DNA from: Bacteroidota bacterium
GTDB lineage: Bacteria > Bacteroidota > Bacteroidia > Bacteroidales > B39-G9
Length of the DNA: 61,266 nt
NCBI GenBank assembly: GCA_015222055.1
Contig: JADFUR010000086.1
Location: 1-61,266, forward strand
Direction of reading: 5' to 3'
The notes beneath the pieces were generated by a model that saw only the letters and a program-made list of their open reading frames with translations, ran no database searches and had not been told where the DNA came from. Below are positions 14,662 to 23,641 of this stretch, one piece after another (position 1 is the stretch's first letter; the number at the start of each line of letters is the position of its first letter). The position numbers and the translations under genes were made by a program.

Positions 14662-14943
14662 ATGTTCAAAACAAACGAATACTTCGACGGTAAAGTAATG
14701 TCAATGGCTTTTGAAACTTCTGAAGGCTCTGCTACAATTGGTGTAATGGCTAAAGGAGACTATGAATTTGGAACTTCCACAATTGAACACATGACTGTAA
14801 CTTCAGGTATAATGAAAGTTATGTTACCAGATAGCAATGAATGGAAAGAATATAAAGAATTTGAAACTTTTATTGTTGCTAAAGATAAAAAATTTAAAGT
14901 TCAACTTTCTGAAGACACTTCATATCGCTGTTTATATAAATAA
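14662..14943 (+). CDS. ppnP: Pyrimidine/purine nucleoside phosphorylase
   Basis: 93-residue single-domain cupin-like protein of the PpnP/YaiE (DUF1255) family, which phosphorolyses a wide range of nucleosides to free base and ribose-1-phosphate. The family pattern is clear: NEYFDGKVMSMAFET near the N-terminus, TIGVMAKGDYEFGTS, EHMTVTSGIMKVMLP and ETFIVAKDKKFKVQ. The full length matches the family. It sits alone after the gdhA terminator, and an AT-rich hairpin follows. It probably serves nucleoside salvage. Confidence 0.92.
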   Translation: MFKTNEYFDGKVMSMAFETSEGSATIGVMAKGDYEFGTSTIEHMTVTSGIMKVMLPDSNEWKEYKEFETFIVAKDKKFKVQLSEDTSYRCLYK

Positions 14944-15097: not shown

Positions 15098-15153
15098 TGT
15101 ATAACAATATTTTCTTTTTATTATACATTTTGTTATGTTTGTATATACATAAC
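15098..15153 (+). promoter_or_regulatory. Likely ModE-type operator pair overlapping a -7 box
   Basis: Two inverted repeats lie just before the regulator gene. One is ATGTATAA (15098-15105) with TTATACAT (15121-15128). The other is GTTATGT (15132-15138) with ACATAAC (15147-15153). The second contains TATGTTTG (15134-15141), a match to the -7 consensus TAnnTTTG, so a bound protein would block transcription of the gene at 15167. The half-site (g)TTATGTa resembles the AT-rich inverted repeats used by ModE-type regulators. The exact consensus for this family member is not known. Confidence 0.6.
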
Positions 15154-15166
15154 GAATTATATAATT

Positions 15167-15550
15167 ATGGCAGGGACAAAAGGAGAAAAATATTATAATG
15201 TTTTCTTAAAATATAAAATATGGCTTGTTTCTAGAGAAGAAGAAAATATTTTAGGAGACGGTAAAGTAAATCTATTAAAAGAAATAGATAAACAAGGCTC
15301 ATTACAATCAGCTGTAAACACAATAGGGATAAGCTATAGAAAAGCATGGGGAAATCTAAAAAAAGCTGAAGAAATTTTAGGTTTTAGTTTAGTTGAGAAA
15401 CACCGAGGCGGTCAATTTGGAGGAACAACAACTCTCACCGATGAAGGAAGAAATCTTATTGAAGCTTATGAAGAACTTCATAAAGAAATTGATGAAACAA
15501 TAAAAAAAACAGTGAAAAAATTCTTTAACCATATAAATGATTTTAAATAG
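15167..15550 (+). CDS. ModE-type winged-helix regulator without metal-binding domain
   Basis: 127-residue DNA-binding protein. The winged-helix region shows the LysR/ModE N-terminal pattern: GDGKVNLLKEIDKQGSLQSA, then VNTIGISYRKAWGNLKKAEE, FSLVEKHRGGQFGGTTTLTD and EGRNLIEAYEELHKEIDE. The C-terminal Mop/TOBE molybdate-binding domains of E. coli ModE are missing, so it is a stand-alone DNA-binding module, common in this phylum. It is the first gene of the molybdate/tungstate locus, with wtpA 46 bases downstream. Inverted repeats over its own promoter (15098-15153) suggest autoregulation. How it senses Mo or W without a TOBE domain is unclear. Confidence 0.85.
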   Translation: MAGTKGEKYYNVFLKYKIWLVSREEENILGDGKVNLLKEIDKQGSLQSAVNTIGISYRKAWGNLKKAEEILGFSLVEKHRGGQFGGTTTLTDEGRNLIEAYEELHKEIDETIKKTVKKFFNHINDFK

Positions 15551-15596
15551 ATAATAATACTTAATATCTTAAAGAGAGATAACAATACCAAAAAAT

Positions 15597-16577
15597 ATGA
15601 AAAAAACTAAACAACTAATTTCAATATTGCTTGTTTTAACATTATCTTTTTCGTGTAACAACACAAACAAACAAAAAAAACAAGACGATAACACTATTTC
15701 TGGTAAATTGATAATTTTTCATGCCGGTAGTTTATCTGTTCCTTTTAAACAAATTACTGAGGAATTTAACAAAGAATATCCAAATGTAAAAATTATTTTA
15801 GAACCTGCAGGAAGTCGAAAATGTGCACGAAAAATAACAGATCTAAATCGAGATTGTGATATTATGGCTTCTGCCGATTATAAAGTAATCGACAACCTGC
15901 TAATACCTGATTATGCAGACTGGAACATAAAATTTGCAAGTAATGAGATGTCAATTGTGTATAACGAAAAATCACATTATGCAAATGAGATTAACAAAAA
16001 TAATTGGTATAATATATTGCTAAAAAAAGATGTTGCCTTTGGCAGATCAGACCCGAATTCTGACCCTTGCGGTTATCGTGCTGTTTTAACTTCTAAGCTT
16101 GCAGAAAAATATTACAACCAGAATGGAATTGTGAAAAAAATTTTAGCAAAAGATCTTAACTATATGAGACCCAAAGAAGTCGATTTAATAAGCCTTCTTG
16201 AAGCTAATGCAATAGATTATATTTTCCTTTATCGTTCTGTAGCAGAACAACATAATTTAAAATTTTTAATATTACCCGATTCTGTAAATCTTAAAAATCC
16301 TGAATTAGGCGAATATTATTCAACCGTTTCTGTTGAAGTTAACGGAAAAAAACCCGGCGAAAAAATAGCTCATAAAGGCGAACCAATGGTTTATGGCGTA
16401 ACAATTTTAAAAAATGCAAAAAATAAACCTGCTGCTGAGGCTTTCACAAAATTTTTGTTAAGTAAAAATAAAGGAGCTAAAATTATGGAACAAAATGGAC
16501 AACCATCTGTTATTCCTTCAAACACGATTTCTTATTCTAAAATACCTGACAAGTTCAAACAATTTGTGAAAAAATAA
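15597..16577 (+). CDS. wtpA: Tungstate/molybdate-binding lipoprotein of ABC importer
   Basis: 326-residue periplasmic oxyanion-binding protein anchored as a lipoprotein (signal peptide to Cys20, LTLSFSC). The mature part has the ModA/WtpA pattern: LIIFHAGSLSVPFKQI, then EPAGSRKCARKITD, CDIMASADYKVID, the strongly conserved FGRSDPNSDPCGYRAV and YIFLYRSVAEQH. The WtpA branch, rather than classical ModA, is indicated by the FGRSDPNSDPCGYR segment and YRSVAEQH. It should deliver tungstate or molybdate to the permease encoded at 21808. Unusually, its permease and ATPase genes are separated from it by three other genes (16757-21622). A strong hairpin follows at 16611-16645. Metal preference cannot be decided from sequence alone. 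Confidence 0.92.
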   Translation: MKKTKQLISILLVLTLSFSCNNTNKQKKQDDNTISGKLIIFHAGSLSVPFKQITEEFNKEYPNVKIILEPAGSRKCARKITDLNRDCDIMASADYKVIDNLLIPDYADWNIKFASNEMSIVYNEKSHYANEINKNNWYNILLKKDVAFGRSDPNSDPCGYRAVLTSKLAEKYYNQNGIVKKILAKDLNYMRPKEVDLISLLEANAIDYIFLYRSVAEQHNLKFLILPDSVNLKNPELGEYYSTVSVEVNGKKPGEKIAHKGEPMVYGVTILKNAKNKPAAEAFTKFLLSKNKGAKIMEQNGQPSVIPSNTISYSKIPDKFKQFVKK

Positions 16578-16610
16578 TTTGATTAACCAACTAAAATTTA
16601 ATTCAAAAAT

Positions 16611-16645
16611 TGTAGAGACAAGTTCATAATTATCTTGTCTCTACA
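16611..16645 (+). terminator. Strong hairpin after wtpA
   Basis: A perfect 12-base stem TGTAGAGACAAG (16611-16622) with CTTGTCTCTACA (16634-16645) has an 11-base loop. The T-rich tail begins only about 10 bases later, so it may be a transcript-end stabiliser or a partial terminator. Confidence 0.65.
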
Positions 16646-16690
16646 TATTAAAAATTTTCTTTTTAAAATCAATTGATGATATTTATCATA

Positions 16691-16731
16691 TTATGTGCAA
16701 ATATTTAATAATATGTTTGCAATCGTTATGT
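16691..16731 (+). promoter_or_regulatory. Promoter and candidate regulator site before the TonB receptor gene
   Basis: TATGTTTG (16712-16719) matches TAnnTTTG and is identical to the box in the ModE-gene promoter. It is framed by TTATGT at 16691-16696 and 16726-16731, the same hexamer found in the putative ModE operators. An imperfect inverted repeat GCAAATA...TATGTTTGC spans 16697-16720. This fits a separate, co-regulated promoter for the receptor gene at 16757. No clear -33 TTTG is visible. Confidence 0.5.
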
Positions 16732-16756
16732 TTAAAAGAGCACAACCGAAACAAAA

Positions 16757-19060
16757 ATGAAAAAACATTTACTCGTATTATTGACATTATTAATGCCATT
16801 TTTTTCTATTTCACAAGAAATTACGGGAAAAATTACTGATGCATCAACAAGCAAAGCTCTTGCTGGAGCTAACGTTGTGATAGTTGAAACTAATACAGGA
16901 ACTATTACAAACACTGATGGTATTTATAAATTCGAAAAGCTAAAGAAAGGAACTTATAATTTATCTGTTAGTTTTATAGGTTATAAAAAAATTAATAAAA
17001 AATTAAGTATTACTGAGGACAAAACTTACACATTAAATTTTTCTGTTAATAGTAGCAGTATAGAAACTAAAGAAGTAGTGATTACTGCAACTAAAACACA
17101 GCAAAATATTGAAGACATACCCCAAAGAGTTGAGTTGATTTCTTTAGCAAAAATTAAATCAAGCCCTATTGAAAGTGCCGATGATATACTAAAATCAATA
17201 TCAGGAACTTACGTAAGTCGAACAATGGGAATTTTCAGCCACAATGCAAATGTTAGTATGAGAGGACTAAGTGGAAGCGAGCAATCAAGAGTTTTAATTT
17301 TGATGGATGGTGTTCCTATCAATAAATCTGATGGAGGTTCTGTAAACTGGAATATTATGAACATGAATCAAATTGCTAAAGTAGAAGTTACAAAAGGACC
17401 CGGTTCTTCTTTATATGGAAGTAATGCAATGGGCGGTGTTATCAACTTTATTTCAAAAAAACCAACTGAAAAAATTACAGGGCAAATTAGTACTGAATAT
17501 GGAACTTATAATACTATTGGAACAATAGTAAATTTTTCTGGCAGACAAGGCGATGATATTAATCATGGATTATACTGGAATGTTAATGGATTTTATAAAC
17601 AAAGTGACGGTTATAATTCAACACCTGAAAATGAAAGAGATTCTAATGATGTAGCATCAGATTTACAAGAATATGCTGTAGGAACAAAATTAGGATACGA
17701 CTTTAATAAATTTAATAATATTGAACTTCAATTAAATTATTTTGACGACCAACGTGGCACCGGTGTTAAAATTTACGATGAAGATGGTTGCAACTTCCAA
17801 CATGAAACATATTCAGGCAGCTTAAATTATAAGGGGGAATTGGGAAAAACAAAAATAAACGCTATTGTTTATTATAGAAATGAGCCATTCTACAGACTAA
17901 ACGAATCTATTAAAATAAAAAATGGCAATGTAATGTACAAATGTTATGATGTAAGTTCTGAAAGAATTGATATGGGAACTATGTTTAATGCATCGCATAA
18001 ATTTGGCAAACACAATTTAATAACTACTGGTTTTGATATGAAAAACGGAAGTGTTGATGGTAACGATAATTACAAAACCTCACCCGATATTGTAACAAAC
18101 AAAGGAAAAATGAACACGTTCGCTTTTTATGCTCAGGATGAATTAAGTCTTTTAAACAATAAAATTAAAATTATTGCAGGATTAAGATACGACGTAGCAA
18201 GATTTTATGATGGATCATATTACATAACAGACGGAACCAGAGCAACTTCAATACTAGAAGATCTTGTTAATGAAAATCTTAATGAGCACACATGGGCTGC
18301 AATAAGTCCTAAATTTTCTGCTCAATACTCCTTTAATAAAAATACTCGAACATATATTTCATACTCAAAAGGCTTCCGTCCTTCAATCTTAGATGACCTT
18401 TGCCGATCAGGTTTTATTGCTGGGGGATTTAAACGAGCAAACCCCGATTTAGAAGCAGAAACTCTTGCTAATTTTGAAATTGGGGGGAATATTAATATTA
18501 ACAATAAATTAAAAATTTCTTCTTCAATTTATTATTCTATTGGTCACGATTTTATGTATTATGTAAGCACCGGAGATTCATTAATGATGGGTGGAAAATT
18601 AAAACCTGTAAGAATAAAACAAAATATTAGTAAAGTAAATATTTACGGAGCTGAATTAGATGTTGCTTACAAAATAAATTCAAATCTAAATGTTTTCGCA
18701 AACTACACATTTGCAAATTCTCAAATATCAAATTTTGATGCCTCTACAGGAGATTTTGATTTAACAGATAAATATTTAACCTATGTTCCTCAAAATCAGG
18801 CTTCAAGTGGCATTTTATGGATGAATAAAATATTAAATACAAATGTAACTTATCATTATTATGATGACCAATGGATGGACGATCAAAACATTGACAAAAT
18901 TGATGCATTTTCATCTATCGATTTAAAATTCTGGAAAACAATTAAGTCATTTACTATGAGCATGAATATACAAAATGTAACAAATCATATATACATCGAA
19001 AGTCATAGTCACGAATCTCTTGGAAGATTTATTACTGGTCAAGTTTCTTATCAATTCTAA
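16757..19060 (+). CDS. TonB-dependent outer-membrane receptor in Mo/W locus
   Basis: 767-residue outer-membrane transporter. A signal peptide (about 1-20, ending SISQ) is followed by a carboxypeptidase-regulatory-like domain (ITGKITDASTSKALAGANVV, about 22-105). Next come a TonB-box-like KEVVITATKT, a plug domain (ISGTYVSRTMG, VSMRGLSGSEQSRVLILMDG, VTKGPGSSLYGSNAMGGVIN) and a 22-strand-type barrel ending in the aromatic VSYQF. The receptor size and plug resemble BtuB/CirA-type receptors rather than the longer SusC; no SusD gene accompanies it. It lies between wtpA and an iron-sulfur membrane protein, with shared promoter motifs. Its substrate is therefore inferred to be a molybdate or tungstate species, perhaps chelated. 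Substrate from sequence alone is not determinable. Confidence 0.88.
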   Translation: MKKHLLVLLTLLMPFFSISQEITGKITDASTSKALAGANVVIVETNTGTITNTDGIYKFEKLKKGTYNLSVSFIGYKKINKKLSITEDKTYTLNFSVNSSSIETKEVVITATKTQQNIEDIPQRVELISLAKIKSSPIESADDILKSISGTYVSRTMGIFSHNANVSMRGLSGSEQSRVLILMDGVPINKSDGGSVNWNIMNMNQIAKVEVTKGPGSSLYGSNAMGGVINFISKKPTEKITGQISTEYGTYNTIGTIVNFSGRQGDDINHGLYWNVNGFYKQSDGYNSTPENERDSNDVASDLQEYAVGTKLGYDFNKFNNIELQLNYFDDQRGTGVKIYDEDGCNFQHETYSGSLNYKGELGKTKINAIVYYRNEPFYRLNESIKIKNGNVMYKCYDVSSERIDMGTMFNASHKFGKHNLITTGFDMKNGSVDGNDNYKTSPDIVTNKGKMNTFAFYAQDELSLLNNKIKIIAGLRYDVARFYDGSYYITDGTRATSILEDLVNENLNEHTWAAISPKFSAQYSFNKNTRTYISYSKGFRPSILDDLCRSGFIAGGFKRANPDLEAETLANFEIGGNININNKLKISSSIYYSIGHDFMYYVSTGDSLMMGGKLKPVRIKQNISKVNIYGAELDVAYKINSNLNVFANYTFANSQISNFDASTGDFDLTDKYLTYVPQNQASSGILWMNKILNTNVTYHYYDDQWMDDQNIDKIDAFSSIDLKFWKTIKSFTMSMNIQNVTNHIYIESHSHESLGRFITGQVSYQF

Positions 19061-19071
19061 TAGATAAATTT

Positions 19072-19110
19072 AAAGGGCTAGGACAAAATTAAAAAACGTT
19101 ATAGCCCTTT
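19072..19110 (+). terminator. Hairpin after the TonB receptor gene
   Basis: AAAGGGCTA (19072-19080) pairs perfectly with TAGCCCTTT (19102-19110) around a 21-base loop, followed by ATTAATAAAA. The poor T tail suggests partial termination, which would let some transcripts continue into the next gene 15 bases on. Confidence 0.6.
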
Positions 19111-19124
19111 ATTAATAAAAAAGC

Positions 19125-20525
19125 ATGAAAAATAATTTTTTAACTAAAATATTTAAAAGTAAGTATTTCTTAATAGTGATGCAATTAATCACTATAACAG
19201 CTTTTACTCTTCTCATTATAGGATCAATAGGTGTAGATACCGGCAATAATTTTAAAATAACAAAAATAATTCAACATACGAACTTGCCAAATTTGTTGGT
19301 TTGGTCTTACTGGTTTTCATTAATAATAATTGTAGCAATAATTTTTGGGAGATTTTGGTGCTCTGTTTGTCCCATGGAGTTAATAATTAGCATTTTTAAT
19401 AGATTGGGATTGAAAAAAAAACCAGGTAAATTCATGAAGTCTGGTTGGCTTGTTACTATTTTGTACACAATTATATTAATATTTGGGATTCATGTTTTTC
19501 TTATACAATGGCTACCCATGCGTATGGCATTATACATGTTGTCATTATTAAGTATTGTTATAATAGTCTCACTTATTTGGGAAAAACGTACGTTTTGTAA
19601 TTATGTTTGTCCAATAGGATTTTTATTAAAATTATACTCTTTATTCTCAACAATAAGAATAAAAAACAAGAGTAAAGAAGTTTGTAAAAACTGTAAAACG
19701 AGAGACTGTATTTCTAAAAAAAATCATTATAATTTTATTAAACGTTCATGCACCTCAAATGTTAATCCTCCTGATTTAAAATATCAGAATGATTGTATCT
19801 TATGTGGGCAATGTATTAAAACATGTCCAAACGATAATCTAAAAATCGGTTATAGTAAACCATCATTAAAAAAAATTGCAAATATTAATTTTTCATCATC
19901 TGAGATATCATTTATTGTAATAATAGCAGGTCTTGTACTATGGGAAATATTATTCAAATGGGAAGTTGCAAGAGGATTTTATCTTGCTCCTCTCTATTTT
20001 ATTTCTAATCTATTTGGATTTGCCGACAATTTTTTTAAAATTATCAAAGCTTTATTTTTCTTTATTATTTATCCCAGTTTTTTATTTCTAATATTTTCAT
20101 TAATAATGAAATATTTTTCGAAAAAAAGCTTGAAAGATTGTTTAGGTAATATTGTTATTTCAATTTTACCAATAATAATAATTATGCATCTATTAAGTGC
20201 TATATTAATAATGATTGAACATTCAGTTTACATTCCATTGGCAATTTCTGACCCAATAGGATTTGATACTGCAACAGCAATACTCAACAAAACAATTTTA
20301 GTAAATAGAACAGAATATATTCCTTGGTTAGTAACTTTACTTTGTATAACTCTACCAATAATTGGATTCATAATATCATATAAAATTATTAAACTAAGAA
20401 AAAATAATAAAGCACAAAAGACAATAGCCTTACTAACAAGCTTTGTATACTTTGCTTTATTTGAATTTTCATTAATTGGATGGAGATTCGATTTAATAGA
20501 ACCTTTTTTAAAAACATGTAACTAA
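19125..20525 (+). CDS. NapH/NosR-like polyferredoxin membrane protein
   Basis: 466-residue membrane protein with around nine to ten hydrophobic helices and iron-sulfur motifs. Two CP-type motifs are typical of the NapH/NosR/RdxA group: FWCSVCPMEL (about 77-86) and TFCNYVCPIGFLLKLYS (about 156-172). A soluble ferredoxin-like loop follows, with CKNCKTRDC (187-195) and CILCGQCIKTCP (224-235), enough cysteines for two 4Fe-4S clusters. The C-terminal half (from about 255) adds further helices not found in short NapH. Such proteins carry electrons across or at the inner membrane to periplasmic partners. The next gene, 23 bases downstream, encodes a lipoprotein that could be that partner. No quinone-binding or enzyme subunit is recognisable. 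Confidence 0.8.
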   Translation: MKNNFLTKIFKSKYFLIVMQLITITAFTLLIIGSIGVDTGNNFKITKIIQHTNLPNLLVWSYWFSLIIIVAIIFGRFWCSVCPMELIISIFNRLGLKKKPGKFMKSGWLVTILYTIILIFGIHVFLIQWLPMRMALYMLSLLSIVIIVSLIWEKRTFCNYVCPIGFLLKLYSLFSTIRIKNKSKEVCKNCKTRDCISKKNHYNFIKRSCTSNVNPPDLKYQNDCILCGQCIKTCPNDNLKIGYSKPSLKKIANINFSSSEISFIVIIAGLVLWEILFKWEVARGFYLAPLYFISNLFGFADNFFKIIKALFFFIIYPSFLFLIFSLIMKYFSKKSLKDCLGNIVISILPIIIIMHLLSAILIMIEHSVYIPLAISDPIGFDTATAILNKTILVNRTEYIPWLVTLLCITLPIIGFIISYKIIKLRKNNKAQKTIALLTSFVYFALFEFSLIGWRFDLIEPFLKTCN

Positions 20526-20548
20526 AAAATAATCTAAAAACAAAAAAA

Positions 20549-21622
20549 ATGAAAAAAATTTTATTTCTAGCAATTGCAATTGGCTTTATAACAGTTTCTT
20601 GCACAAACAATTCAAAAATAGACAACGCTCAAAAAGAGACAACACTTAAAGTTGATACTACAGATGCCACAAATAATTTTTACGACAATGAAATTACCCA
20701 CGAATTAAATGGTAATGATGTTGAAGTTTTGGGCGAAGTAGCTAATCCCGGGAAAGTATATTTTTCAAAATTACCGCAACGGTCGGTAATTATTAAAGAG
20801 GCAAAATTAAAAGACAATAATGAAATAGCATTTGTAGGTGCTTATCGTTACGATGGTTATTCAATTTACGATATCTTAAACGAAAGAATTCTTAAAAAAG
20901 CAAATCAAGAAGAATTTCCTCCAATAATTGATCTTTATGTTGAAATTTCTAACGACAAAGGAGAATCTGTTCTTTTAAGTTGGGCTGAAATTTACTATCC
21001 TATTTATCGTCATAACATAATTATTGCTACAAAAGTTATGCACATTGTTCCTTCAAAAAGTAAAGATTTATGGCCTTTACCTACAGAAACAAAATTAATT
21101 GTAGGAACAGATTTAATTACAGAAAGAAATATTTCTAATCCTACTAAAATTATTGTTAAGAGTCTTGATGATAAATTCAAAATCAAAAGGGATATAAAAC
21201 CTCTTTATTCAAAAGACTTAAAAATTTATAATGACAAAGAATTAATAAAAACCTTAACTCAAATACCAAAAAATTTAAAAGAAGAAAATTTTTCAACAAT
21301 TTTTTATGGTAGAGGAAGAGGTATTCATAGCACTAGCGATTTTATTGGAGCCAAGTTGAAAGATCTTTTAATAACTGATTTTGAATTCAATAAAAAAAAT
21401 ATTCAAAATGGAATGTTTGTTCTTGCTTCAAAAGATGGTTATAGATCTGCTTTCACTTATAGCGAAGTAATGAACCGTAACGACCAATCAGAAATTTTAT
21501 TAATTGACAAAAACAATTACGAAAATGCAGGTCGTTTCTCAATATTCCCTAGCTGTGATTTTTTCTCAGACAGGGCTATGAAAGCTTTAAATGAAATACA
21601 TTTTAGAACAATAAAACATTAG
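20549..21622 (+). CDS. Lipoprotein with two sulfite-oxidase-fold-like halves
   Basis: 357-residue lipoprotein (Cys18 after IGFITVS). Both halves share one pattern: a hydrophobic segment with DGYSIYDILNE (first half) or GAKLKDLLITD (second), then a strand such as VEISNDKGESVLLSWAEI or MFVLASKDGYRSAFTYSEV. The first half adds LPTETKLIVG and the second NRNDQSEILLID. This resembles the oxidoreductase molybdopterin-binding (SUOX-like) domain, with its GVPLxDLL and ADGY patterns, but the catalytic cofactor-binding Cys is not evident, so cofactor binding is unproven. It follows the polyferredoxin gene by 23 bases and is probably cotranscribed and exported to the periplasm or outer membrane. It could be a redox partner, a metal-handling protein or a degenerate molybdoenzyme. 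Confidence 0.6.
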   Translation: MKKILFLAIAIGFITVSCTNNSKIDNAQKETTLKVDTTDATNNFYDNEITHELNGNDVEVLGEVANPGKVYFSKLPQRSVIIKEAKLKDNNEIAFVGAYRYDGYSIYDILNERILKKANQEEFPPIIDLYVEISNDKGESVLLSWAEIYYPIYRHNIIIATKVMHIVPSKSKDLWPLPTETKLIVGTDLITERNISNPTKIIVKSLDDKFKIKRDIKPLYSKDLKIYNDKELIKTLTQIPKNLKEENFSTIFYGRGRGIHSTSDFIGAKLKDLLITDFEFNKKNIQNGMFVLASKDGYRSAFTYSEVMNRNDQSEILLIDKNNYENAGRFSIFPSCDFFSDRAMKALNEIHFRTIKH

Positions 21623-21623
21623 G

Positions 21624-21672
21624 AAGTTTGGAGTTTGGAGTTTGGAGTTTGAAGTTTGAAGTCTGAAGTTTT
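21624..21672. repeat. Heptamer tandem repeat
   Basis: About seven copies of (G/A)AGTTTG, with the later units drifting to GAAGTCTG and GAAGTTTT, begin two bases after the stop of the lipoprotein gene. The repeat is not protein-coding. Similar GTTTGGA-type runs occur between genes in many Bacteroidota. Confidence 0.75.
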
Positions 21673-21690
21673 ATAAATATATTTCTTTAA

Positions 21691-21730
21691 ATTGCTCTTT
21701 TGATTTATAAATTCGAAAGAGCAATTTTTC
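21691..21730 (+). terminator. Terminator between lipoprotein gene and wtpB
   Basis: A perfect 10-base stem ATTGCTCTTT (21691-21700) with AAAGAGCAAT (21716-21725) is followed by TTTTT. It should separate the receptor/redox transcript from wtpBC. Between it and wtpB lies a -7-like TACTTTTA (21775-21782). Confidence 0.8.
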
Positions 21731-21807
21731 TATATTAGCGATAAAAAACCTAAGGGATATAAAACATTTTTTTGTACTTTTAGAAGTTTTTAAGATTTAA
21801 CGTTAAA

Positions 21808-22590
21808 ATGAAAAAAATTGAACCTGTAAATTTAATATTTGCTTTTTTGGGAGGCATAGTCCTTTTGTTCATATTAGGACCACTCCTCAGCATGTTTTTT
21901 GCTAGTTCACCACAAGAAATTTTTGAGACGACTAAAGATGTAGAAGTACAAAACAGTATTTGGCTAACTCTTTTAACATCAATGGGAGCAACTGTTGTAT
22001 TTTCTATTTTTGCAATACCCCTATCTTATTTACTTGCTCGAAAAAATTTTTATTTTAAAAAATTAATAATAGGTATTATCGATATTCCAGTTGTAATTCC
22101 TCACTCAGCTGCCGGTATTGCTATTTTAGGATTTATTTCAAGAGATACTGTAATTGGAAAAACAGCCTCTTACTTTGGATTTAATCTTATAGGACATCCA
22201 ATAAGCATATCAATAGCAATGGCATTTGTAAGCATTCCGTTTTTATTAAATTCTGCCCGTGACGGGTTTTCATCAGTTCCGGTAAGACTAGAAAAGGCAG
22301 CACTAAATCTGGGAGCTTCGCCTATCAGAGTATTTTTCACCATTTCGCTACCTCTTGCATGGCGAAATATTATTTCCGGATTAATAATGATGTTTGCCCG
22401 AGGCATGAGTGAATTTGGGGCTGTAATTATTGTTGCATATCACCCAATGATAACTCCTGTATTGATTTATGAACGATTTGGTGCTTTTGGTTTAAAATAC
22501 GCACGTCCTGTATCAATAGTATTTATTGGAGTTTGTTTAATTTTCTTCATTTTGTTACGACTACTTTCAAAAGAAAGGAAAAATGCTTGA
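21808..22590 (+). CDS. wtpB: Tungstate/molybdate ABC transporter permease
   Basis: 260-residue inner-membrane permease of the ModB/WtpB type with about six helices. The cytoplasmic EAA loop is clear (EKAALNLGASPIRVFFTISL, about 166-185), as are the family segments IPVVIPHSAAGIAILGF and MFARGMSEFGAVIIVAYHPM. Its stop overlaps the start of the ATPase gene by 8 bases, so the two are translationally coupled. It should work with WtpA (15597) despite the three intervening genes. A terminator before it and a weak -7-like box suggest its own promoter. Confidence 0.92.
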   Translation: MKKIEPVNLIFAFLGGIVLLFILGPLLSMFFASSPQEIFETTKDVEVQNSIWLTLLTSMGATVVFSIFAIPLSYLLARKNFYFKKLIIGIIDIPVVIPHSAAGIAILGFISRDTVIGKTASYFGFNLIGHPISISIAMAFVSIPFLLNSARDGFSSVPVRLEKAALNLGASPIRVFFTISLPLAWRNIISGLIMMFARGMSEFGAVIIVAYHPMITPVLIYERFGAFGLKYARPVSIVFIGVCLIFFILLRLLSKERKNA

Positions 22591-23641
22591 AGTAAAAAAT
22601 ATATCAAAAAAATTAGATGATTTTAACATTAAAGATATAAGTTTTTCTGTTAACAAAGGTGATTACTTTGTTATTCTTGGCGTTTCAGGTGCAGGAAAAT
22701 CTGTTATACTAGAAATTATAGCTGGCTTAATGCAACCAAATTCCGGCACAATTCATCTTAACAATAAAAATATTACTAACGAAAAAATCCAAAAAAGAAA
22801 AGTTGGTCTCGTATTTCAAGATTATGCTGTTTTTCCTCACTTATCTGTAAAAGAAAATTTATTATATCCTTTAAAAAACGTTGGTCTTGAAAAAGAAGAA
22901 ATTCAAAACAGAATGAACGAATTAGCTGACGAAATGAGCATTTCTCATTTATTAAAAAGAAGTCCAACAACCCTATCGGGAGGTGAATTACAACGCGTTG
23001 CTCTTGCACGAACACTTGCTCTAAATCCTGAGTGTTTACTTCTCGACGAGCCTCTCTCTTCATTAGATATTCAACTTAAAAATAACTTAAGAGGATTGTT
23101 GCGAAAAATAAACAGAAAGGGACAAACAATAATTCATGTAACTCACGATTACGAAGACGCAATATTTTTAGCAAATAAAGTTGCAGTTATAAATGATGGA
23201 AAAATTGTTCAGACCGGTTCTCCCGAGGAAGTTTTTAAAAATCCGAAAACAAAATTTGTAGCAAATTTTTCGGGTATAAAAAATTTTTTCAAGGCAGATA
23301 TAATAACAGAGGTAAACGAAAATTTAAAAAAAGCTGTTATTAATAATAAAGTTTCAGTAAGTTTATTTACAGAAGCAAAAACAGGAACAGGTTTTGTAAT
23401 TATTAAAAATAAGAACATTATTATATCTAACATAAAACCCAACATAAGTGCGATGAACAACTATCAAGGTGTTGTTGTAGATGTTTTACCTGCTAAATTT
23501 GGTGTTGAGATTATTGTTGATATAGGAATTTTAATTTCTGTTTTGATTAGTGCAGAAACTTTAAAAAAATATGATTTCTTTGAAGATAAAAAAGTGTGGA
23601 TTTCTTTTAAAGCATCATCTGCAAAATTTTTGCATGGATAA
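22583..23641 (+). CDS. wtpC: Tungstate/molybdate ABC transporter ATP-binding protein
   Basis: 352-residue ATPase of the ModC/WtpC group. Walker A is ILGVSGAGKSVILE (about 31-44), Q-loop GLVFQDYAVFPHLSV, signature TLSGGELQRVALARTLALNP and Walker B CLLLDEPLSSLD, followed by the switch histidine THDYED. From about residue 235 there is a C-terminal TOBE-like regulatory region (ITEVNENLKKAVINNKVSVS onward), as in oxyanion importers. It overlaps wtpB by 8 bases and ends just before a small terminator that meets the convergent pth gene. Confidence 0.93.
   Translation: MLEVKNISKKLDDFNIKDISFSVNKGDYFVILGVSGAGKSVILEIIAGLMQPNSGTIHLNNKNITNEKIQKRKVGLVFQDYAVFPHLSVKENLLYPLKNVGLEKEEIQNRMNELADEMSISHLLKRSPTTLSGGELQRVALARTLALNPECLLLDEPLSSLDIQLKNNLRGLLRKINRKGQTIIHVTHDYEDAIFLANKVAVINDGKIVQTGSPEEVFKNPKTKFVANFSGIKNFFKADIITEVNENLKKAVINNKVSVSLFTEAKTGTGFVIIKNKNIIISNIKPNISAMNNYQGVVVDVLPAKFGVEIIVDIGILISVLISAETLKKYDFFEDKKVWISFKASSAKFLHG

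Follow-up and report, generated by a model that had tools for sequence, protein, structure and literature searches.

Introduction

TonB-dependent uptake of metallophores, such as siderophores and molybdophores, combines a receptor with periplasmic and ATP-binding cassette (ABC) steps under metal control, and in BtuG-BtuB and HmuY-HmuR the TonB receptor is paired with a surface lipoprotein. To our knowledge, no dedicated machinery is assumed for the passage of tungstate and molybdate across the outer membrane. Here we analyse a locus at positions 15,098 to 23,641 of contig JADFUR010000086.1 from a Bacteroidales bacterium (61,266 nucleotides; the window denotes this whole stretch), in which the genes of a WtpABC-type importer of these oxyanions follow a gene for a ModE-like regulator and are interrupted by genes for a TonB-dependent receptor (TBDR), a membrane polyferredoxin and a lipoprotein that we denote LIPO. 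We assign a probability of roughly 0.7 to the reading in which the locus serves a ModE-family regulon for tungsten, and possibly for molybdenum as well, as its uptake arm.

Several described systems share features with this locus. The Escherichia coli ModE regulon has a regulator with an apparently related helix-turn-helix (HTH) domain and resembles the system considered here in the repression of uptake and the activation of metal enzymes, as far as promoter layout suggests; it differs in that no TOBE domain was found here and that the targets include a tungsten aldehyde oxidoreductase (AOR), a glutamate-semialdehyde dehydrogenase and an outer-membrane receptor. A tungsten regulator, TunR, is known from Desulfovibrio; a search of an open-licence library found no paper on it. 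Sulfite oxidase and MsrP exemplify the SUOX (Oxidored_molyb, PF00174) proteins, to which each half of LIPO is connected via single-domain relatives, but LIPO is a tandem lipoprotein without a molybdenum-ligating cysteine and without a PF00174 match. Like the metallophore systems, the locus encodes a TonB receptor, a periplasmic and an ABC step under apparent metal control; it differs from them in that no biosynthesis genes are found among its seven genes (no genome-wide search was made) and in that the putative periplasmic protein appears to be derived from SUOX. The lipoproteins of a family that we call c5 resemble those of the BtuG-BtuB and HmuY-HmuR pairs in adjoining a receptor and carrying acidic residues after the lipobox cysteine, but c5 units are tied to tungsten genes and c5 matches no Pfam family above cut-off.

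WtpABC is similar in that WtpA of the window exceeds a curated cut-off and WtpB and WtpC match their own families best, and different in that the genes here are interrupted. Passages of PMC11980592 list three tungstate/molybdate ABC importers and state that WtpABC carries both oxyanions; the terms TonB and outer membrane are absent from its main text. The same passages describe regulators that, like the one analysed here, are linked to tungsten genes: TudE/ModE-like proteins, which carry TOBE domains, and TaoR, which combines an HTH with a periplasmic-binding-like domain and controls a tungsten AOR (PMC11980592). Neither a TOBE nor a periplasmic-binding-like domain was found in the protein examined here. 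Literature searches in an open-licence library revealed no described TonB/tungsten or TonB/ModE system, although print elsewhere may hold one.

Results

Gene content and recurrence of the locus

An earlier note, made from the sequence of this stretch, had proposed seven genes in a row, and all seven open reading frames (ORFs) are present on the plus strand in the order it gave. They encode a ModE-like regulator of 127 aa that consists of a DNA-binding domain only (15167-15550; TIGR00637, 81.8 bits, E 3e-23, cut-off 98.5), the tungstate/molybdate-binding lipoprotein WtpA (15597-16577), a TonB-dependent outer-membrane receptor with a CarboxypepD_reg-like N-terminal domain (16757-19060), a NapH-like membrane polyferredoxin (19125-20525), LIPO (20549-21622), a WtpB-like permease (21808-22590) and a WtpC-like ATPase (22583-23641). 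WtpA is above the curated cut-offs of both NF003196 (387 bits vs 355) and TIGR03730 (333 vs 243); the best matches of WtpB and WtpC, NF040839 (273 bits) and NF040840 (338 bits), stay under their cut-offs of 340 and 440. The plug (PF07715) and barrel (PF00593) of the receptor both exceed theirs. The split of the Wtp genes, also pointed out in that note, is not peculiar to this contig: other genomes, too, have LIPO between the Wtp genes, in some cases together with the receptor. A gene for a Ppnp nucleoside phosphorylase (14662-14943) precedes modE and recurs near ModE or LIPO in L042, L044, L051 and L167.

Among 393 genomes of the order, a search with a nine-sequence alignment found LIPO in 75, 73 of them with strong matches (by genus, 53 of 204), and WtpA is present in 134 of the same genomes (122 strong). 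When weak matches were dropped (two LIPO and 12 WtpA genomes), 69 of the 73 strong LIPO genomes had WtpA (Fisher p 7e-38, phylogeny ignored). In G769, one of the four LIPO genomes without a WtpA call, LIPO, WtpB and WtpC stand at a contig end.

The neighbourhoods point the same way. We compared 72 LIPO loci, that is, 73 fetched stretches minus L131, where LIPO escaped the ORF caller. L051 and L052 lie on separate contigs of the same genome (G002), L172 was contributed by a search of the class, and the strong LIPO genomes G647, G680 and G765, with fragmentary genes, were left out. At least one of Wtp, ModE, TBDR and c5 is present at 60 of these loci. The partners are WtpA (36 loci), TBDR (35), WtpC (34; the one in L045 is probably a general ABC ATPase), WtpB (33), c5 (27), ModE (18), a second protein denoted c7 (15) and the polyferredoxin (2), and the frequent gene orders are c5-c7-TBDR-LIPO-WtpB-WtpC and (ModE)-WtpA-LIPO-WtpB-WtpC. 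At five loci (L046, L137, L145, L155, L169), LIPO is soon followed by a pair of genes that we read as CcsA- and ResB-like, a heme/cytochrome link that the tungsten model leaves unexplained. The receptor and the lipoprotein, which the earlier note had suggested looking for near wtpA or modE in other genomes, thus recur there in many genera.

A ModE-type operator before the uptake genes

A palindrome of the form TGTTATG-N10-CATAACG, which we take to resemble the ModE box, precedes modE on the plus strand (15131-15154), with the promoter box TATGTTTG inside it. The second operator of the window (16724-16747, plus strand) precedes the receptor gene directly downstream of a TATGTTTG box and matches 13 of 16 positions; it was found by score and, with two core mismatches, is not among the sites of the genome scan described below. 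The search for the operator started from the palindrome in the window, and upstream regions of LIPO loci served to refine it, giving the consensus CGWTATG-N10-CATAWCG or, written at greater length, CGWTATGT-N8-ACATAWCG.

Of the 143 regions upstream of system genes, 32 match the motif at 13 or more of 16 positions, a count made on the same loci that had served to find and refine it. The corresponding figures are two of 312 for other genes (a single palindrome counted from either side) and 10 of 2860 for first-order shuffles. Sites at this threshold precede ModE (9/13), c5 (9/29), TBDR (4/19), WtpA (4/20), LIPO (3/37) and c7 (3/5), but none was found in the six regions of the remaining system genes. 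Upstream regions of neighbours of system genes also score in 12 of 82 cases; these were kept apart and cover largely the same intergenic space. The association of these genes, their common operator and its position relative to promoter boxes are directly observed. Because receptor and LIPO recur with molybdenum/tungsten (Mo/W) genes and have the same operator as modE and wtpA, the uptake across the outer membrane proposed in the earlier note is a sound deduction, and we consider this outer-membrane arm and its tie to Mo/W metabolism well supported.

The operator at AOR and dehydrogenase genes

The earlier note did not mention the operator, its link to the tungsten AOR and to a semialdehyde dehydrogenase, or the c5 and c7 surface proteins. 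In 14 genomes drawn from LIPO loci, there are 53 sites with at most one mismatch, compared to 24 for the reversed pattern. Because these genomes were picked mostly for good sites, the 21 sites at LIPO loci do not count as independent, in contrast to the AOR and dehydrogenase sites among the 32 found elsewhere. Eleven of the 32 lie 65-168 bp before a gene for a 716-722-aa AFOR-family protein, the tungsten AOR (nine identified by Pfam, whereas those at G055:C81 and G038:C177 coincide with AFOR matches of the genome survey). Four lie 21-78 bp before a gene for a 541-547-aa L-glutamate gamma-semialdehyde dehydrogenase, all four proteins being above the TIGR01236 cut-off (774-785 bits vs 614). Of the others, five belong to the c5/TBDR unit, one to ModE/WtpA and one to a contig end behind Ppnp. 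This genome has operator sites at AOR (C74), at the dehydrogenase (C20) and at c5/TBDR (C103), the last overlapping the called start of c5.

Outside the 14 genomes, 16 further genes for AOR of the 718-aa type include seven with a site at 81-108 bp that scores 11/14 or better (1.8% in shuffles); in six of these seven, the promoter box lies 64-68 nt downstream of the start of the operator. Among the shorter AOR genes, two of four have sites that score 11/14 or better, at 56-59 bp. Four of the 16 AOR genomes (G010, G032, G053, G057) had contributed LIPO loci to the motif-finding set, their AOR genes being unexamined at that stage.

The position of the operator differs between the gene classes. 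The sequence TAnnTTTG is the -7 promoter box of Bacteroidota. In 10 of 11 AOR promoters, its first base lies 55-66 nt downstream of the start of the operator, in six at exactly 64, and the chance of such a box in a 12-nt window is 1.3%. At uptake promoters it overlaps, adjoins or lies close to the operator (-20 to +9 of the operator start) in 26 of 33 cases by a hand count of the listed positions, compared to eight of 33 in a scripted tally of overlap in a narrow window; four of the other seven have no box in view and three have one at -52, 34 and 56. The median distance from operator to start codon is 86 for AOR, 27 for uptake and 29 for dehydrogenase genes (Mann-Whitney p 3e-5, AOR vs uptake). 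Given that the operator is located about 60 bp upstream of the -7 box at AOR genes, and on or next to the box at most uptake genes, the layout suggests an activator at the former and a repressor at the latter as well as at three of the four dehydrogenase genes.

Some neighbours of these sites deserve mention. In L255 (G000:C20, 4080-8001), a perfect operator precedes an apparent operon that encodes the glutamate-semialdehyde dehydrogenase, an L-piperidine-6-carboxylate dehydrogenase (NF050084, above cut-off) and an iron-sulfur protein similar to HoxU/[FeFe]-hydrogenase. In L259, L265, L271 and L277, the operator region separates the tungsten AOR gene from a divergent gene for a ThiF-type sulfur-carrier adenylyltransferase of 193-199 aa, whose family was checked for L259 alone. 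In L281, a gene for an Na+/H+ exchanger with a cyclic nucleotide (cNMP)-binding domain has a perfect operator at a distance of 151 bp, either by chance or as an unexpected member of the regulon.

Origin of the LIPO family

LIPO and eight aligned relatives have no Pfam match above gathering score, PF00174 included; PF00174 has no match above cut-off in 60 relatives either, and a PDB sequence search with LIPO gave nothing meaningful. LIPO was found in 12 of the 60 relatives' genomes, in two of 396 genomes of the class sample (single-sequence search) and, as a match, in 21 of 394 genomes of the phylum sample, of which just four, this genome among them, have it at full length. The weak matches in the phylum are mostly short single-domain proteins (169-218 aa for the 16 that were aligned), and three of them (G803, G823, G123) are the same ORFs that Pfam matches with PF00174. 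Through this intermediate family, the label of a two-half SUOX-like protein given in the earlier note holds: in hhalign comparisons, the 16 single-domain secreted relatives align with the N half of LIPO at 96.5% and the C half at 97.7%, and with 11 PF00174 domains at 94.5%. As a direct likeness the label fails, the two halves reaching merely 33% and 5% against PF00174 domains.

The best-kept cysteine column of LIPO is that of the lipobox (44 of 71 sequences), followed by columns with 23 and 17 cysteines; at one candidate column, nine of the 16 single-domain relatives have a cysteine. Each half keeps a glutamate and a D...R pair (E147, D188/R193 and E306, D341/R342) in at least 69 of 71 sequences, and these residues seem, by eye, to match conserved residues of the single-domain family. 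Because no cysteine outside the lipobox is well conserved, LIPO should not hold a molybdenum cofactor in the manner of sulfite oxidase. LIPO is accordingly a doubled SUOX-type domain in which the metal-ligating cysteine is missing, and it is more likely to serve as a binding or carrier protein than as an enzyme. The LIPO copy in G001 (L041, 8239-9309) contains an in-frame stop codon, for which error and decay are indistinguishable in a draft genome.

Genes for single-domain SUOX-like proteins adjoin Mod transporter, ModE, TonB receptor, moaA/moeA-type or nif-like genes in L212, L213, L215, L216, L218, L219, L223, L226 and L227, the neighbours being named by reference match or by reading of the sequences; loci such as L210 and L214 have no neighbour of these kinds. 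In L212, L225, L226 and L227, these proteins stand beside TonB receptors and nif-like cofactor genes, with ModE and a ModA-like gene additionally nearby in L212 and L227. Such loci with nif-like genes are possibly a molybdenum version of the system, for nitrogenase.

Tungsten or molybdenum

Among the 60 relatives examined, 22 encode AFOR_C, with three copies in this genome, and AFOR is present in 18 of 20 strong WtpA genomes and in 10 of 12 LIPO genomes. WtpA adjoins AFOR by coordinates in G053, G043 and G057, and the two are 3.3 kb apart in G010. Virtually all AFOR-family enzymes appear to use tungsten, according to passages of PMC11980592. The gene content accordingly favours tungsten as the likelier metal of the locus, with molybdenum possible too.

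The metal could instead be mainly molybdenum, or both metals could count equally, in which case the AOR link would reflect a shared ModE-type regulator and not tungsten specificity. The occurrence, elsewhere in the phylum, of single-domain SUOX-like relatives beside Mod, moaA/moeA-type and nif-like genes speaks for this alternative, as does the transport of both oxyanions by WtpABC (passages of PMC11980592). We nevertheless judge it unlikely, given that in this order the operator precedes genes of the AFOR family, which those passages describe as consisting almost entirely of tungsten enzymes, and that WtpA and AFOR genes co-occur.

Surface proteins and the ligand of the receptor

Two members of c7 have a type IX secretion system (T9SS) tail by Pfam. 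In G487, G492 and G655 (L276, L278, L268), a c5-c7-TBDR unit is located away from the LIPO locus, behind the same operator. In Bacteroidota, acidic residues after the lipobox cysteine direct a lipoprotein to the surface. At least two acidic residues among the six that follow this cysteine are present in 37 of 41 c5 proteins vs three of 40 LIPO proteins, a count that omits 28 LIPO and two c5 proteins without a lipobox by the pattern used. By this rule, c5 would face outward and LIPO would be periplasmic.

In this genome, c5 genes are not at the locus and stand elsewhere with a second receptor. This second unit, which consists of c9 (a DDTDN-motif protein, no Pfam match), c13 (a PGHHG membrane protein), a c5 lipoprotein and a TonB receptor, was seen in L258 (G000:C103), L049, L118, L130, L163 and L164, with an operator near it in L258, L163 and L164.

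The receptor of the window is closest to hemin-type TonB models, of which TIGR01785 scores 218.5 bits (cut-off 316.85, not reached), so that heme or another ligand is compatible with its sequence. The receptor and its partners might then import heme, a corrinoid or another cofactor of the same metabolism and be merely co-regulated with tungsten genes, as the pair read as CcsA/ResB-like at 5 of 72 loci could also indicate; this pair has no Pfam match, and the CcsA-like member elsewhere has no NCBIfam match. Against such cofactor import, which seems to us rather improbable, the receptor is repeatedly paired with ModE and WtpABC under a common operator, LIPO is largely limited to WtpA genomes, and the single-domain relatives of LIPO likewise stand beside molybdenum transporters.

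The polyferredoxin as an accessory

The polyferredoxin scores 56.9 bits on TIGR02163, short of the cut-off of 213, and has nine hydrophobic segments, NapH-type cysteine pairs (C79/C82, C158/C162) and a ferredoxin motif (C224-C234). It is a genus-level accessory: it was found at 2 of 72 LIPO loci, in the window genome and in G002, between receptor and LIPO, and in G001, the remaining genome of this genus, nothing intervenes between the receptor gene and LIPO. No Wtp or ModE gene accompanies its relatives with 41-44% identity in the stretches fetched from G000, G054, G003 and G005. The one in G000 adjoins another TonB receptor; this stretch (L053, G000:C3, 9439-14064) combines the polyferredoxin paralogue with another hemin-type receptor and a 121-aa secreted-looking protein, so that the pairing occurs twice in one genome.

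The earlier note had envisaged a periplasmic redox step, for example one in which polyferredoxin and LIPO would carry out a reduction that frees the metal from a chelator. The place of its gene between receptor and LIPO in two genomes and the paralogue beside a TonB receptor in this genome would fit such a step. Its absence from 70 of 72 loci and from G001, the location of its relatives away from Wtp and ModE genes in the fetched stretches, and the lack of a well-conserved non-lipobox cysteine in LIPO speak against it and leave the redox step very improbable. Finally, that a housekeeping receptor and lipoprotein stand beside Mo/W genes by chance, as the 12 of 72 loci without a system partner might suggest, is countered strongly by the recurrence in many genera, the co-occurrence in 69 of 73 genomes and the common operators, and is most improbable.

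Apart from the locus, the window contains a Bacteroidales small signal recognition particle (SRP) RNA (Rfam RF04183; 49815-49922, minus strand).

Discussion

Taken together, these observations are compatible with the following model. Surface capture lipoproteins of the c5 family, partly with a T9SS-exported protein, would deliver tungsten, as a complex or as tungstate, to the TonB receptor; in the periplasm, LIPO would take the metal from the receptor and hand it over to WtpA, and WtpBC would pump it inward. When metal is sufficient, the ModE-like protein would repress modE, wtpA and the transcription unit of the receptor, as well as the tungsten-free glutamate-semialdehyde dehydrogenase, and would activate the tungsten AOR. 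We infer the metal, the transported species, the order of hand-over and the direction of regulation from the genomic data; that LIPO acts as a carrier and that the genes are switched on and off in this way are reasonable deductions.

Several observations weigh against this model. The operator counts come from the loci on which the motif was defined, and the co-occurrence statistic takes no account of phylogeny. As many as 111 of 143 system upstream regions have no site at the threshold of 13 of 16, including all 14 WtpB and both polyferredoxin regions, and a hairpin between LIPO and WtpB may end transcription there. Ten of the 32 sites outside LIPO loci are at other genes, six of them within reading frames, and nine of the 16 further AOR genes have no good site. 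WtpA is present without LIPO in 53 genomes, LIPO therefore being dispensable for Wtp function; 12 of 72 LIPO loci have no Wtp, ModE, TBDR or c5 gene in the fetched stretch, which in three cases is the full 19.8 kb, and at 16 loci a TBDR occurs without Wtp or ModE. With regard to metal sensing, Pfam finds no TOBE (Mop) domain in the 127-aa ModE-like protein, and the hemin-type likeness of the receptor bears on the ligand. An AlphaFold2 model of LIPO from its single sequence (pLDDT 31) was discarded.

A bolder version of the model, about which we are somewhat more doubtful than confident, is that the whole tungsten economy of Bacteroidales is under a regulator that has no known metal-sensing domain and that turns AOR on and the tungsten-free semialdehyde dehydrogenases and the outer-membrane importer off. 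The carrier would then be a doubled SUOX domain deprived of its metal-ligating cysteine, and the cargo perhaps a tungsten chelate or a salvaged W/Mo-pterin and not free tungstate.

The analysis points out LIPO, an unnamed lipoprotein family, as a likely periplasmic carrier. The operator provides a candidate list of tungsten-controlled genes in Bacteroidales and makes testable a possible metal-sparing swap between the tungsten AOR and tungsten-free dehydrogenases. If a TonB-dependent arm is indeed under the operator of modE, tungsten would in some habitats be scarce enough to be contested like iron.

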